Made by a program: the position numbers and the translations under genes
Origin: Sebaldella termitidis ATCC 33386
GTDB lineage: Bacteria; Fusobacteriota; Fusobacteriia; Fusobacteriales; Leptotrichiaceae
Assembly (NCBI RefSeq): GCF_000024405.1
Contig: NC_013517.1
Span: forward strand, 2,945,989-3,009,988
DNA: 64,000 nt
Direction of reading: 5' to 3'
Notes under the pieces: generated by a model
Seen by the model: the letters and a program-made list of their open reading frames with translations, nothing else
Told to the model about the DNA's origin: nothing
The model's database searches: none
Shown: piece by piece, positions 24,331 to 55,118 of the stretch
Position numbering within the stretch: position 1 is the stretch's first letter
Layout: each line of letters starts with the position of its first letter

Positions 24331-24365
24331 TATATATCAAAAAAGCGATATATTTTATTTACTTA

Positions 24366-24474
24366 CTTCTTTCATCCAGACTTTACTGTCGGTACTGGAA
24401 TTACACCAGTTCATGCTTAAATATAAGCTCGTGGACTTTACCACCGGTCGGGAATTTAACCCTGCCCTGAAGTT
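24366..24474 (-). promoter_or_regulatory. FMN riboswitch (RFN element)
   Basis: On the minus strand the conserved RFN blocks appear in order: CTTCAGGGCAGGGT, CCCGACCGGTGGTAAAGTCC, CACGAGC, GAACTGGTG with CCAGTACCGACAG, and AGTCTGGATGAAAGAAG. FMN binding to nascent RNA should favour the downstream terminator and shut off ribHDE-ribBA. Confidence 0.96.
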
Positions 24475-24616
24475 TATTTGTTTTTCTAAGTTTATAATAT
24501 AATATTTTTCTTATTATGTCAAATATTTTCTCATTGCTTTTTTAAATCCAGCAGAAAGATAATTAATTTATATAAAATATCAGTTTTACGGAATAAAACT
24601 GGAGGATAAAATTTTT

Positions 24617-49390: not shown

Positions 49391-51448
49391 TTACATATTC
49401 AATACAAAATTTTCTTTACTATTTTTCAAAACTTCATGAGTATACTCTTCTCTCATCTGTGACTGATACATTTTTGCATAAAGCCCGTCTTTTTCCACAA
49501 GTTCTTCGTGTGTTCCTCTTTCTACTATATTACCTTTATTCAGAACTATAAGCTGATCTGCATGTTTTACCGTAGAAAGTCTGTGCGCAATAATAAATGT
49601 AGTTCTGTTTTGTGATATTACGTTCAAAGCTTTTTGTATCATAATTTCAGTTTCAGTATCAATATTTGCAGTGGCCTCGTCCAGTATTAATATCTCCGGA
49701 TCATAGACCATTACCCTTGCAAAGGCAATAAGCTGTCTTTCACCAACAGAAAAATTTCTTCCCATATCCTCTACTGACTCGTGTATGCCGTTCGGCTGCT
49801 TATCAATAAAGCTCTGTGCGCCTATCTGACTCATTATCTCAAGAACTCTTTCTTCAGTAACATCATTATTATTAAAAGTTATATTTGAAAATAATGTCCC
49901 GCTGAAAAGCACAGGATCCTGAAGAACCATTCCCACATGGGCTCTGTAAGTCTGTACAGGATAATCCCTCAAAGATCTTCCGTCTATTACAATATCACCT
50001 TTCTGATAGTCATAAAACCTGAGCAGAACATTCATAAGCGAACTTTTCCCGCTTCCTGTATGACCCACGATTCCTATTGTATTCCCGGCAGGTATAATGA
50101 GATTTATATTTTTTAAAACATAATTTTCATTATCATAAGCAAAACTAAGATTTTTGAACTCCACATTTCCTTTCAATTCCAGATTTTCAGTACTGAATTC
50201 TAATTCCTTAGACGGAACATTCAAAAACATATCAAATATTCTTCTCGCCGAAACAATTGCCCTTTCGAATCTGTTCAAAACCCCGAAAAACCAGAACAAC
50301 GGTGCAAATGCGCTGTCTACATACTGTACAAACGCAAATACCGTACCTACTGATAAAATCATACTTCCGCTCAAAAATTCCCTTCCAAAATACACAAGTG
50401 TCAGTGTAATAGCCAGACGGCGTACAGTATGAGCCATACCGTCAGTATAAAGCGCACTTAACACAGCAAATTTCCTCTTATATTCCAGATAATCATCTGC
50501 CAGTACGTCGAATTCTGCTATTGACTCATCCTCATGTGTAAAGGCCTGAACTACTTCTATTCCCTGAAACTGTTCATTCATCATTGCGTTCATATTGGAC
50601 TGTATTTCCCTTGTTTCCTTAAAGTTTTCCGAAACATATTTTCTGTAAAGATACAGCCAGACTGCAATAATAGGAAGTATCAGCAATGCATAAGATGCAA
50701 GCTTTACATTCAGCAGAAACATTGCTATATATATAAAGACTACCTGCACTACAGCCTTAACTATTTCCAGAAGTGTATTTTCATATAATCCAAATATTGC
50801 ATTACTGTCGTGAACAATATAAGATACCACCTTTCCGTCAGGATAATCGCTGAAATACTGTACAGGAAGCTTCTGAAGCTGCTTGAATGCATCTTTCCTC
50901 AGATCAAACACTACCTTTGTTGCCAGTATTCTCAGGCTGTATCCGCATGTGTACATAAGACATGCAGCAGCCATATACAGTATAAAAATTGACAGTACCG
51001 CAAGTGTTGCCGATCCGACATACGGTTCATAAAAATTCCACACTTCATCTTTTGTAAGTATATTAAATCCGACATTACTTTCTTTATTATTTATAAAAAG
51101 TCTGTTATCCTTTATTTCTGCTTTCTCATCTGCAATATCAGAATTTATAAGCACATATCCTTCCTTAGTCAGAATTATGCTGTTTTTTTCTAATATATTA
51201 AGCTTACTGTTTTCCTCAATTCTGGTATAATATTTCCCCTTATAAAAAACTGATTTTTTTTCATCCTGTATTGTATTACTTACTGAAACAGGTCTGAACA
51301 TCCCCATAATATATTTATCTATAATTATCTTTGTCATCATTGTTCCCACTATAAATATAGTAGTGGAAAGCATTAAGGCAAAAAGACTGTAAAATAAAAA
51401 TCTTTTATATGGTTTTGTATAGGCCCACAGCTGTTTCCATATATACAT
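49391..51448 (-). CDS. ABC exporter half, BmrD-like (catalytically intact Walker B)
   Basis: The 685-residue half-transporter has an N-terminal membrane domain with six helices. A large insertion sits between the first two (about residues 40-135), as in BmrD/YheH. The nucleotide-binding domain has Walker A GHTGSGKSS, Walker B with catalytic Glu (LILDEATANID) and a degenerate signature FSVGERQ. Pairing with the upstream half, whose sites are complementary, gives one consensus and one degenerate ATP site, the mark of heterodimeric multidrug exporters. The start overlaps the upstream stop by one base. Confidence 0.93.
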   Translation of the reverse strand: MYIWKQLWAYTKPYKRFLFYSLFALMLSTTIFIVGTMMTKIIIDKYIMGMFRPVSVSNTIQDEKKSVFYKGKYYTRIEENSKLNILEKNSIILTKEGYVLINSDIADEKAEIKDNRLFINNKESNVGFNILTKDEVWNFYEPYVGSATLAVLSIFILYMAAACLMYTCGYSLRILATKVVFDLRKDAFKQLQKLPVQYFSDYPDGKVVSYIVHDSNAIFGLYENTLLEIVKAVVQVVFIYIAMFLLNVKLASYALLILPIIAVWLYLYRKYVSENFKETREIQSNMNAMMNEQFQGIEVVQAFTHEDESIAEFDVLADDYLEYKRKFAVLSALYTDGMAHTVRRLAITLTLVYFGREFLSGSMILSVGTVFAFVQYVDSAFAPLFWFFGVLNRFERAIVSARRIFDMFLNVPSKELEFSTENLELKGNVEFKNLSFAYDNENYVLKNINLIIPAGNTIGIVGHTGSGKSSLMNVLLRFYDYQKGDIVIDGRSLRDYPVQTYRAHVGMVLQDPVLFSGTLFSNITFNNNDVTEERVLEIMSQIGAQSFIDKQPNGIHESVEDMGRNFSVGERQLIAFARVMVYDPEILILDEATANIDTETEIMIQKALNVISQNRTTFIIAHRLSTVKHADQLIVLNKGNIVERGTHEELVEKDGLYAKMYQSQMREEYTHEVLKNSKENFVLNM

Positions 51449-53202
51449 TATTCCACCTCCTCTGATTCCTGAGTTGTCATTGTATTTTGCTCCATAAACT
51501 GATCATAATACCAGCCCCTAAGCTCCATGAGCTCTTCGTGAGTCCCTTTCTCCACTATAGTACCTTCCTGAAGAACAATTATGTAGTTCGCATCCCTTAC
51601 TGCCGATAATCTGTGAGCCACTATAATTTTTATCATCTCCGGATAATATTCCGCAATATTTCTGATTATATTTTCTTCCGTTTTCCCGTCAACGGCTGAT
51701 AATGAATCATCCAGAATCAAAACATTCCCGGCTCTCACAAAGGCCCTCGCCAGAGACAGTCTCTGCTTCTGCCCACCTGAAAGCATAACTCCCGATTCAC
51801 CGGTTACTGTTTCAAGACCGTTTGTTAATGTTCCTATATCCTTTGTAAAATCTGCATGCTCTATAGCTGCCATTATATCTTCACGGGAAGCATTCATATT
51901 TCCTAATCTGATATTTTCATAAACGGTTTTTGAAAAGACAATATGCTCCTGAGGCACATAAGCTATATGTTCTCTTATATTTTCCGCATTATACTCCGAT
52001 ATGCCGCAGTTATTTATCAGAATTTTTCCTTCTCCTAATTTATACTGACGTAAAAGCTGACGAATAATAGTAGTTTTCCCACTTCCTGTTGTCCCCACTA
52101 TTCCCAGTGTTTCACCGGTTTTTACAGCTATACTGAATGAATTAAGGCTTTTTACCTGAGAACCTGGATAAGAAAAACTGTAATTATCAAATTCTATACT
52201 TTCGATTTTCTCCAGACTCAAAGGATTTTCCGGAATAATTATATCACTTTCTTCATTATAGACAGCATCTATTCTTTCATAAGACCCGCTGCCTCTCTGT
52301 AATGTGTTAATAAAAGCACCAAGTGCGAAAACAGGCCATTCCAGCATCATTACATAAACAAAATACGTAACCAGTTTACCTGTTGTCATATTGCTTTTGA
52401 ATACATCCATAATTCCAAAATAGATTGCAAGTGTGGCAGCAATAGTAAATACACCTATAAATAAAGGCTCATACAGTGAAATAATCTTTGAAAAAGCTAT
52501 ACTTTTATCATAAGTTACCTGTGATTTTGAAAGAAGCTTTTCTATATCTTCTCTTTCTTTTGCATATGCTCTTATTACTCTTACTCCTACTATGGATTCA
52601 AGCACACTATTACTCAGAACACTCGTAGACTGCTGTCTTTCCTCATAAAGTTTCTCTATTGTTTTCTCCAGTTTATCTACACCAAATGGTATTATAAGAA
52701 TGGGAATCAAAACAATTATAGAAATTTTCGGATTAATAACAAACATACTGGAAATGAGCAGTGTCAGATAAAGTGAAGCTTCAGCCAGCATCAAAAATCC
52801 AAAATCCACTGCTTCGCTTACAGCATTGACATCCTCTGTTGCTCTGGACATAAGGTCACCTGTCTGATACTTCTTAAAAAATTTTCCGTCCATTCTGATA
52901 ATATGTCTAAAAAATTTCTTTAGTACTTTAAAAGAAAGAATATTGGCATTCTGAATAAAAATATAGTTCCATATACCTGTCGTAATATAACCTATTACTA
53001 TTATGGAAACTAATACTATTGTTATCTGTGTCAGTTTTGACCCTGTGAGCGTTCTCATTGTCATCTGATCTATTGTATATCCTGTGATCCATGGAACAAT
53101 CAATGAAAATACGTCTCCTATCAGCAGCATTAAAAGCACTAACAGATATCTCCATTTCATCTCTTTTATGAACCAGCCCAGCTGCCTAAATATTTTTATC
53201 AT
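51448..53202 (-). CDS. ABC exporter half, BmrC-like (degenerate catalytic residue)
   Basis: The 584-residue half-transporter has six membrane helices and a nucleotide-binding domain with Walker A GTTGSGKTT (370-378), intact signature LSGGQ (474-478) and Walker B LILDDS, where Asp499 replaces the catalytic Glu. Length and the Asp match BmrC/YheI of the BmrCD drug exporter. AAGGAGGAG precedes the ATG. The 5' region carries a leader ORF and terminator, as at bmrBCD in Bacillus subtilis (known ribosome-mediated attenuation). It probably exports drugs or lipids. Confidence 0.93.
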   Translation of the reverse strand: MIKIFRQLGWFIKEMKWRYLLVLLMLLIGDVFSLIVPWITGYTIDQMTMRTLTGSKLTQITIVLVSIIVIGYITTGIWNYIFIQNANILSFKVLKKFFRHIIRMDGKFFKKYQTGDLMSRATEDVNAVSEAVDFGFLMLAEASLYLTLLISSMFVINPKISIIVLIPILIIPFGVDKLEKTIEKLYEERQQSTSVLSNSVLESIVGVRVIRAYAKEREDIEKLLSKSQVTYDKSIAFSKIISLYEPLFIGVFTIAATLAIYFGIMDVFKSNMTTGKLVTYFVYVMMLEWPVFALGAFINTLQRGSGSYERIDAVYNEESDIIIPENPLSLEKIESIEFDNYSFSYPGSQVKSLNSFSIAVKTGETLGIVGTTGSGKTTIIRQLLRQYKLGEGKILINNCGISEYNAENIREHIAYVPQEHIVFSKTVYENIRLGNMNASREDIMAAIEHADFTKDIGTLTNGLETVTGESGVMLSGGQKQRLSLARAFVRAGNVLILDDSLSAVDGKTEENIIRNIAEYYPEMIKIIVAHRLSAVRDANYIIVLQEGTIVEKGTHEELMELRGWYYDQFMEQNTMTTQESEEVE

Positions 53203-53305
53203 TTCTTTTCTCCTCCTTAAAACAATATTTTATTTTTTGCCTTTATTCTCTCTTTTTAGCACTCACTCCCATCTATAATTTCTAATTTATTAAAATTTTT
53301 ATAAT

Positions 53306-53332
53306 AAAAAAAGTAAGGTTTAGCACCCTACT
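53306..53332 (-). terminator. Attenuator terminator before the ABC exporter genes
   Basis: Minus-strand AGTAGGGT-GCTAA-ACCTTACT forms an 8-bp stem (one G-U pair) followed by seven T residues. It lies about 70 bp after the leader ORF stop and about 105 bp before the exporter start codon, so it would end transcription ahead of the structural genes. Confidence 0.85.
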
Positions 53333-53363
53333 AAAATTTTATTGCCTGTTTTTAAATAAAACT

Positions 53364-53426
53364 TTGAGCTGCGCCTCTAAAATAGAGGCTGCATACCCCT
53401 ATTTATATATGAGAACAAAGGCTCAA
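53364..53426 (-). promoter_or_regulatory. Alternative RNA stems in the exporter leader
   Basis: A perfect 7-bp hairpin GCCTCTA-TTT-TAGAGGC (53373-53389) is extended by TGC/GCA. TTGAGC within the leader ORF (53421-53426) is complementary to GCTCAA (53364-53369). A further stem AAAGTTTTATT / AATAAAATTTT begins at that GCTCAA segment and reaches the terminator. These pairings cannot all coexist, as expected for an attenuator switch. Confidence 0.65.
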
Positions 53427-53492
53427 CACTGATACGTCTGCTTTTGTTCTGTTTGTATTTGATTTTTTTCCCGCAAATAATTTAATATCCAT
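53403..53492 (-). CDS. 29-residue leader peptide of the ABC exporter
   Basis: A 29-codon frame starts with ATG 53492 and ends with TAA 53403. It begins MDIKLFAGKK and ends LSLCSHI. A strong ribosome binding site (GAAGGTGAG) sits at the right distance, and a consensus promoter lies upstream. The peptide has no signal sequence. Because its last codons overlap TTGAGC, which can pair with a downstream segment before the terminator, ribosome position could decide whether the terminator forms. This is the arrangement of BmrB, although the peptide sequence is not one I recognise. Confidence 0.75.
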   Translation of the reverse strand: MDIKLFAGKKSNTNRTKADVSVLSLCSHI

Positions 53493-53536
53493 GTTCTCAC
53501 CTTCTTTCTTTATAATTTTAAAATTTATCTCCCAAA

Positions 53537-53566
53537 ATCTTAACATATACATATCTGTGATGTCAA
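53537..53566 (-). promoter_or_regulatory. Promoter of the exporter leader
   Basis: Minus-strand TTGACA (53561-53566), an 18-bp spacer and TAAGAT (53537-53542) lie about 45 bp upstream of the leader ATG. Confidence 0.85.
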
Positions 53567-53587
53567 GGTTTTTTTATTGTTTTTAAA

Positions 53588-53603
53588 GGGATTGAAATAT
53601 CCC
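53588..53603 (-). terminator. Short terminator of malQ
   Basis: Minus-strand GGGAT-ATTTCA-ATCCC is followed by TTTAAAAA. It separates malQ from the exporter promoter. Confidence 0.55.
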
Positions 53604-53627
53604 GATGTTTAATATTTAAGCTTATTT

Positions 53628-55118
53628 TTATCTTCCGTAAAGCTTAGTTATTCTTTTTATTTCATCAGATAGAACTGTTGTCAAAGCTTCTTCCTTCATT
53701 CTCCATTTCCAGTTACCGTCAGCAACTCCCGGTATATTCATTCTAGCTTCACTGTCCAGTCCCAAAAAATCCTGCATCGGAGCCAGAGCCATATTAGCTA
53801 CTGATCTCCAGGCAGCTTTTATAAAACGCCAGTGGATCTCATTATCTGTATAAATATCAAAGTAATCCCTTACATATTCTTTATCATGCTCACTTGCCTT
53901 AGAATACCATCCTGTAATCGTATCATTATCATGTGTCCCGGTATACACTACACAATTATGATCATAAGAATGTGTAAGATAATCATTTTCTTCATCCGAA
54001 TCAAAAGCAAACTGCAATATTTTCATACCCGGAAACCCTGTTTCATTTCGCAGCTCTACTACTTCATTTGTAAGATTTCCAAGATCTTCAGCTATTATTG
54101 GCAGATCACCAAGTGCAGCTTTTATGGAATTAAAAAAATCTATTCCCGGTCCCTTTCTCCACTCACCTATTATAGCAGTTTTTTCTCCTGCCGGTACTGC
54201 CCAATACGACTCAAATCCCCGAAAATGATCTATTCTTATGATATCTGCCGTCTTAAGATTAGCTCTCACTCTTTCTATCCACCATTTATAACCGCCCTCC
54301 TTTAATTTCTCCCAATCAAACAAAGGATTACCCCAAAGCTGTCCTGTTTCGCTGAAATAATCAGGCGGAACACCTGCCACATCAATCGGCTTTCTTTCTT
54401 TATCAAATAAAAATATTTCCGGATTTGCCCATGCATCTGCACTGTCAAAAGCAACAAAAATCGGAATATCTCCTATTATACTGATACCTTTTGAATTAGC
54501 ATAGCCTTTTATCTTTGCCCACTGATTGAAAAAAAGATACTGCACAAAATTATTATACTCTATATCATCTTTCAGAAGTTTTTTATATTTTTTCAAAGCA
54601 CTTTCTTTTCTGAGCAGTATATCTTCGTCCCACTTTGACCACTCCTGACCCTTAAAATAGTATTTCAAAGAAATAAACAGCGAATAATCCTCCAGCCAAA
54701 AAGAATTTTCAGATTTAAAAATTTCTATTTCAAATTTCATCTGCTCATTATCTGCTTTTTTATAATTTTCATAAGCCTTTCGAAGTAAAGGAAGCTTATT
54801 CTTATAAAGAAGTCCGTAATCTATGCTTTTAGGATCACTGCCCAGCTCAGCTTTATCTGCATCTGCAGTTTCCAGTAAACCTAAATTAATTAAATTTTCC
54901 AGATCAATCAGATAAGAATTTCCTGCAAAAGCTGAAAAACACTGATATGGTGAATCCCCATATCCGGTAGGTCCCAATGGAAAAACCTGCCATAGCTTCT
55001 GATTTGACCTGTCTAAAAAATCAATAAACTCTATTGCACTGTTCCCTAATGTGCCAATACCATATTTTCCATATAGTGATGACGGATGCAGTAAAATCCC
55101 CGAGCTTCTTGGAAACAT
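53628..55118 (-). CDS. malQ: 4-alpha-glucanotransferase
   Basis: The 496-residue GH77 enzyme transfers alpha-1,4-glucan segments in maltodextrin and glycogen metabolism. It has SSGILLHPSSLYGKYGIGTLG at the N-terminus, QVFPLGPTGYGDSPYQCFSAFAGN, the nucleophile region DIIRIDHFRGFESYWAVPAGE, the acid IIAEDLG and YTGTHDNDT. Length matches short bacterial MalQ. AGGAGG precedes the ATG. With the intracellular amylase nearby it likely recycles oligosaccharides. It is cytoplasmic. Confidence 0.95.
   Translation of the reverse strand: MFPRSSGILLHPSSLYGKYGIGTLGNSAIEFIDFLDRSNQKLWQVFPLGPTGYGDSPYQCFSAFAGNSYLIDLENLINLGLLETADADKAELGSDPKSIDYGLLYKNKLPLLRKAYENYKKADNEQMKFEIEIFKSENSFWLEDYSLFISLKYYFKGQEWSKWDEDILLRKESALKKYKKLLKDDIEYNNFVQYLFFNQWAKIKGYANSKGISIIGDIPIFVAFDSADAWANPEIFLFDKERKPIDVAGVPPDYFSETGQLWGNPLFDWEKLKEGGYKWWIERVRANLKTADIIRIDHFRGFESYWAVPAGEKTAIIGEWRKGPGIDFFNSIKAALGDLPIIAEDLGNLTNEVVELRNETGFPGMKILQFAFDSDEENDYLTHSYDHNCVVYTGTHDNDTITGWYSKASEHDKEYVRDYFDIYTDNEIHWRFIKAAWRSVANMALAPMQDFLGLDSEARMNIPGVADGNWKWRMKEEALTTVLSDEIKRITKLYGR

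Follow-up and report, generated by a model that had tools for sequence, protein, structure and literature searches.

In Bacillus subtilis, control of bmrCD lies with bmrB, a leader of 53 codons whose translation, like drugs that target the 50S subunit, has been shown to promote readthrough (PMC4191407); terminator and antiterminator both lie within that leader ORF and are predicted to form alternative pairings (PMC4191407). The patAB attenuator of Streptococcus pneumoniae, according to the part of its report available to us, was uncovered through terminator mutations that give constitutive expression (PMC4319486), and in Escherichia coli the toiL upstream ORF of topAI senses several classes of ribosome-targeting antibiotic, with stalling at different sites (PMC12121999). 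Here we describe, on the minus strand of a 64,000-nucleotide stretch of the genome of Sebaldella termitidis ATCC 33386, a bacterium of the termite gut (the window), a leader that is, judged by its sequence, a real and conserved leader-ORF attenuator candidate. We think it rather probable that it acts as a translation-coupled transcription attenuator limiting the expression of a BmrCD-type multidrug exporter, a reading in which we infer the control by the ribosome, the antibiotic signal and the antiterminator pairing (3:4, below).

The two genes behind the leader encode a BmrC-like half exporter of 584 aa (51448..53202, minus strand), with an intact LSGGQ signature and a Walker B motif, LILDD, in which Asp replaces Glu, and a BmrD-like half exporter of 685 aa (49391..51448, minus strand), with an extracellular-domain insertion, a degenerate signature (FSVGE) and the catalytic Glu kept. 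For both subunits the closest solved relatives are B. subtilis BmrC and BmrD (YheI/YheH), by a wide margin: E-values are 6.1e-133 for the BmrC-like subunit (next family 2.2e-110) and 3.5e-152 for the BmrD-like one (next 5.0e-122). LILDDSLSAVD aligns to LILDDSLSAVD of BmrC, and FSVGERQL to LSSGERQL of BmrD, where LILDEATA is kept, so that the match to BmrC and BmrD in length, degenerate signature and Asp-for-Glu replacement claimed by a sequence-only reading of this DNA is borne out by alignment. The extracellular domain sets BmrCD apart (PMC10632425), and residues 2-669 of the BmrD-like subunit align to BmrD 2-670, full length, insertion included; the alignments of plasmid-collection homologues, among the matches listed, begin no earlier than residue 139. 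By its relatives, its insertion and its degenerate site, the pair is a BmrCD-type heterodimeric ABC exporter as predicted from sequence. No BmrC-like subunit was found at E <= 1e-100 in 92 Fusobacteriales genomes outside the genus, and a BmrD search of 391 Clostridia-type genomes at E <= 1e-130 returned nothing. The operon (49391-53202) is flanked by starch genes, malQ upstream and an alpha-amylase gene downstream, a setting that, together with the absence of BmrC-like subunits at this threshold from the other Fusobacteriales searched, points to acquisition by transfer or to loss in other lineages.

Ahead of the exporter we find, on the minus strand and as the sequence-only reading had described, a promoter, a short ORF of 29 codons preceded by a ribosome binding site, a hairpin and a terminator. 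The promoter is of sigma-70 type, TTGACA-N18-TAAGAT (53537..53566; hexamers at 53566-53561 and 53542-53537), its hexamers and 18-nt spacer identical across the four genus genomes; promoter-like sites as such are no more frequent than in shuffles (4 found, 5.5 expected). The leader ORF, MDIKLFAGKKSNTNRTKADVSVLSLCSHI (53403..53492), starts with ATG at 53492, immediately 3' of the ribosome binding site AGAAGGTGA, and ends in TAA at 53405-53403. Minimum-energy folds place a hairpin within it (53412..53450; AGAACAAA at 53450-53443 with TTTGTTCT at 53419-53412), which was not found in the most distant genus genome. The intrinsic terminator, AGTAGGGTGCTAAACCTTACT-TTTTTTT (53305..53332), consists of a stem-loop at 53332-53312 and seven T at 53311-53305; stem and T tract are kept in 4/4 genomes, and the stem has a predicted energy of -9.6 kcal/mol in each. 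Terminators exceed the chance level (2 found against 0.2 expected in shuffles), and the fold of the leader RNA is more stable than those of its shuffles (z = -3.1).

A same-strand intrinsic terminator within a long 5' leader occurs at only 2 of the 58 predicted genes of the window, bmrC and ribH. The latter, encoding lumazine synthase, follows an FMN riboswitch (110 bits; 24360-24478) with its own terminator (24327-24304), all on the minus strand, and serves as the positive control for this screen. At the exporter leader, no Rfam family reached its gathering score within 53200-53640, and the peptide matches no NCBIfam or Pfam family. Two further features were seen in the leader region. In the minimum-energy fold of the full-length RNA (53531-53305, minus strand), the region of the ribosome binding site pairs with the terminator 3' arm and T tract, which may reflect merely the meeting of purine-rich and pyrimidine-rich sequence. 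An ATG ORF of 7-9 codons lies 3' of the terminator (~53273-53244, minus strand; MGVSAKKRE in S. termitidis) in three genus genomes and is absent from the fourth, G003.

We compared the S. termitidis locus with its counterparts in three other genomes of the genus (G001, G002 and G003), a set of which three members are close and G003 is the most distant. The sequence-only reading had staked its switch on conservation of the small ORF in related genomes; the orthologous upstream regions hold both ORF and terminator in all four. More broadly, every genome shows at this position malQ (4-alpha-glucanotransferase; 53628..55118, minus strand), the constant upstream neighbour, followed by promoter, leader ORF, hairpin, terminator and exporter; a small conserved protein gene (KVTKEMNIMEAVEKYPIIAQVLMRYGLGCVGC...) precedes malQ on the opposite strand in relatives (L022 745-1011, L021 1651-1887). 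The homologous leader peptides have 29 (G002), 29 (G001) and 31 (G003) codons, the last, MDIKLFEKYNNRIANRVVADRSVISFYTYDK, being 45% identical to that of S. termitidis, and the residues invariant across the genus are MDIKL, N-R, A, V and S. Between S. termitidis and G003 the ORF carries a single indel, of 3 nt and in frame, and although the end of the G003 ORF is shifted by 1 nt, its stop codon still falls within the AAATAG motif of the RNA segment that we call segment 1. Identity between these two genomes is 91% over the stop codon and segment 1, 82% over the hairpin and 100% over the T tract; it is 57% over leader codons 6-29, 52% over the spacer and 48% in the post-terminator region, and the value of only 52% for the terminator is an artefact of the alignment, in which a 1-nt insertion in the loop went unrecognized. 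The dN/dS of the leader ORF, 0.46 to 0.91, comes from ~28 codons and is too noisy to decide on selection on the peptide. No arrest motif is conserved across the genus, the R-x-K of the S. termitidis peptide being lost in G001 and G003.

The element appears confined to these genomes: it was not found in 92 further Fusobacteriales and 391 Clostridia-type genomes, a leader-peptide profile gave clear matches in the four genus members only, and the leader DNA had no match in plasmids. Weaker covariance-model matches in other Fusobacteriales resemble ordinary gene-end terminators or coding sequence rather than leader attenuators, and the short leader-DNA matches outside the genus that we inspected are look-alikes of ribosome binding sites, promoters or A/T-rich sequence.

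The two complementary stretches to which the sequence-only reading had drawn attention, TTGAGC within the ORF (53426-53421) and GCTCAA (53369-53364; together 53364..53426, minus strand), are indeed present, but their pairing is not kept throughout the genus: it is exact in two of the four genomes, contains a G-U pair in G001 and is broken in G003 (ATTAGC/GCTTAA), for which reason we set it aside as the main switch. The better conserved competing hairpins around the leader stop codon are, on sequence grounds, more likely to be the switch. Segment 1, AAAUAGGGGU (53395..53404; genus form AAAUAGRGGU), overlaps the stop codon and can form a 10-pair helix with segment 2, GCCUCUAUUU (53380..53389; genus form [G/A][C/U]CUCUAUUU), which constrained folds and pairing conservation identify as the partner of either segment 1 or segment 3. 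AAAUAGRGGU and UAGAGG vie for one shared partner, CCUCUAUUU. The alternative hairpin 2:3, GCCUCUA-UUU-UAGAGGC (53373..53389, minus strand; common core CUCUA-UUU-UAGAG), would be the terminator-permitting state. Helix 1:2 excludes helix 2:3, and all four genomes preserve each of the two: over the set 97.5% of cells are paired in helix 1:2, against 32.5-65% in slid versions, and 100% in helix 2:3, against 28.6-64.3%. The slid versions move the partner along; the shuffle control is uninformative with n=4 sequences. Covariation is thin, with one double change, G-C to A-U in helix 2:3, and with three of the four genomes close to one another.

Constrained folds of the four leaders describe two states. 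State A combines helix 1:2 with a proposed antiterminator, 3:4, in which GGCGC.GCU.AAAGUUUUAUU would pair with AAUAAAAUUUU.AGU...GUGCU (53322..53375, minus strand), segment 4 including the terminator 5' arm; in state B, 2:3 is paired and the terminator forms. The 3:4 fold exists in 4/4 genomes at -8.3 to -12.0 kcal/mol but is not above shuffles, nor is the sequestration of segment 4. An antiterminator between segment 2 (CUCUAUU) and AGUAGGG was dropped, having zero probability in all folds shown.

Folding the RNA with a ribosome on the ORF, a check named in the sequence-only reading, gave a divided answer. With the ribosome footprint blocked and the RNA taken before the terminator 3' arm is made, the probability of helix 2:3 in S. 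termitidis and G002 rises from 0.14 and 0.00 with P-site codon 25 to 0.95 and 0.92 with codon 27; in G001 and G003, equilibrium folding prefers 2:3 at many stall positions. Nor does the difference between stalled and stop-codon ribosomes exceed that in dinucleotide shuffles of the spacer: for the four genomes, 41/200, 34/200, 142/200 and 127/200 of these switch at least as much as the real leader. With masked folding in agreement for just two genomes, and with shuffles switching as often, the antiterminator step is one that we infer; and since shuffles switch alike and G001 and G003 favour 2:3 at many positions, folding alone is no proof, and it is conservation and layout that carry the argument. 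In full-length RNA the terminator prevails almost wherever the ribosome stands; any switch must therefore be kinetic. In 4/4 genomes the pre-terminator fold faces a higher computed barrier on its way to the terminator when it starts in state A, with 1:2 paired, than when it starts in state B, by 0.7 to 3.7 kcal/mol (10.3 against 9.0, 9.7 against 8.3, 7.6 against 3.9 and 9.3 against 8.6 kcal/mol), the state-B saddle of G003 lying at -1.4 kcal/mol.

In the mechanism that we propose, the leader ORF would be translated behind RNA polymerase. A freely running ribosome at the stop codon would cover segment 1, which overlaps that codon, and so remove it, favouring state B: 2:3 would pair, segment 4 would be left free, the terminator (4:5) would form and the exporter would stay off. 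Slowed translation, most likely through a ribosome-targeting antibiotic, would hold the ribosome upstream and let 1:2 pair, whereupon segment 3 could bind segment 4 and polymerase could read through into bmrCD. We favour attenuation because of the layout and synteny in four genomes, the survival of the ORF through divergence, the mutually exclusive conserved helices, the masked folds of S. termitidis and G002, the barriers and the BmrCD-like nature of the exporter, and because the window's only other leader terminator belongs to an FMN-riboswitch gene and B. subtilis bmrCD itself has a leader-peptide attenuator (PMC4191407). More tentatively, and with considerable doubt, we suggest that this may be antibiotic-sensing attenuation of a BmrCD-type exporter in Fusobacteria, independent in origin from bmrB and built as a five-segment switch with its first segment set on the leader stop codon, which would act as a generic sensor of translation rather than through peptide-specific arrest; any ribosome failing to reach the stop codon, whatever the drug, would then turn the exporter on.

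The same terminator and mutually exclusive hairpins would also fit if a small molecule or an RNA-binding protein set the choice between 1:2 and 2:3, the ORF being incidental or an aid to basal translation. That switching by ribosome position does no better than shuffles, and that a riboswitch gene is the window's sole other gene of this kind, speak for such an attenuator; we nevertheless judge it unlikely, given the lack of an Rfam match at gathering score and of an extended conserved aptamer, and given that a homologue of 45% identity retains the ORF, its ribosome binding site and the placement of a stop codon within segment 1. The shuffle result and the dominance of the terminator at equilibrium, with antibiotic control so far a prediction, would also fit a fixed partial terminator that simply keeps the exporter low, beside a short ORF with no regulatory role. 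Such a brake, however, could do without a conserved ORF and without a pair of competing helices at the stop codon, yet these are kept, and there is in our estimation just an outside chance that nothing more is at work.

If translation does set the switch, its cue could also be a shortage of amino acids, sensed for example at Ser or Leu codons near the peptide end, instead of drugs. The S. termitidis peptide ends in SVLSLCSHI, in which Ser occurs three times and Leu twice, and classic trp-type logic, in which a held-back ribosome means readthrough, would fit; these residues, however, are not kept (the G003 peptide ends in SVISFYTYDK), and what is regulated is a multidrug exporter rather than a biosynthetic operon, which makes an amino-acid cue quite improbable.

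Our search of the literature available to us found no leader-peptide resistance attenuator described for Fusobacteria, which is not proof of absence. Should the translation-coupled reading be true, it would place such an attenuator in that phylum, and related multidrug exporters of two phyla would obey one regulatory logic assembled from different components, suggesting strong selection tying the BmrCD-type exporter to ribosome inhibition. The three described systems resemble the Sebaldella leader in different respects. Like it, toiL is a short leader ORF, for which antibiotic sensing has been shown where here it is presumed; toiL, however, controls translation initiation and Rho-dependent termination in a toxin-antitoxin operon, whereas the Sebaldella leader places an intrinsic terminator before an exporter. 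The patAB leader, in the part of its report available to us, likewise sets a predicted terminator, antiterminator and anti-antiterminator ahead of a heterodimeric ABC exporter (PMC4319486), but that part describes no leader ORF (PMC4319486). With bmrB the candidate has in common the same kind of exporter pair downstream, a short leader ORF (here predicted to be translated) and a terminator with alternative pairings. The bmrB ORF, however, has 53 codons and contains its terminator, while that of Sebaldella has 29 and is followed by its terminator ~70 nt past the stop; in Sebaldella the deciding helix overlaps the stop codon, the RNA pairings are different and the peptide is probably so too, and antibiotic induction, shown for bmrB, is here a prediction. 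Read from its sequence, the Sebaldella element thus resembles bmrB in its logic and in the type of exporter behind it, but is laid out differently.
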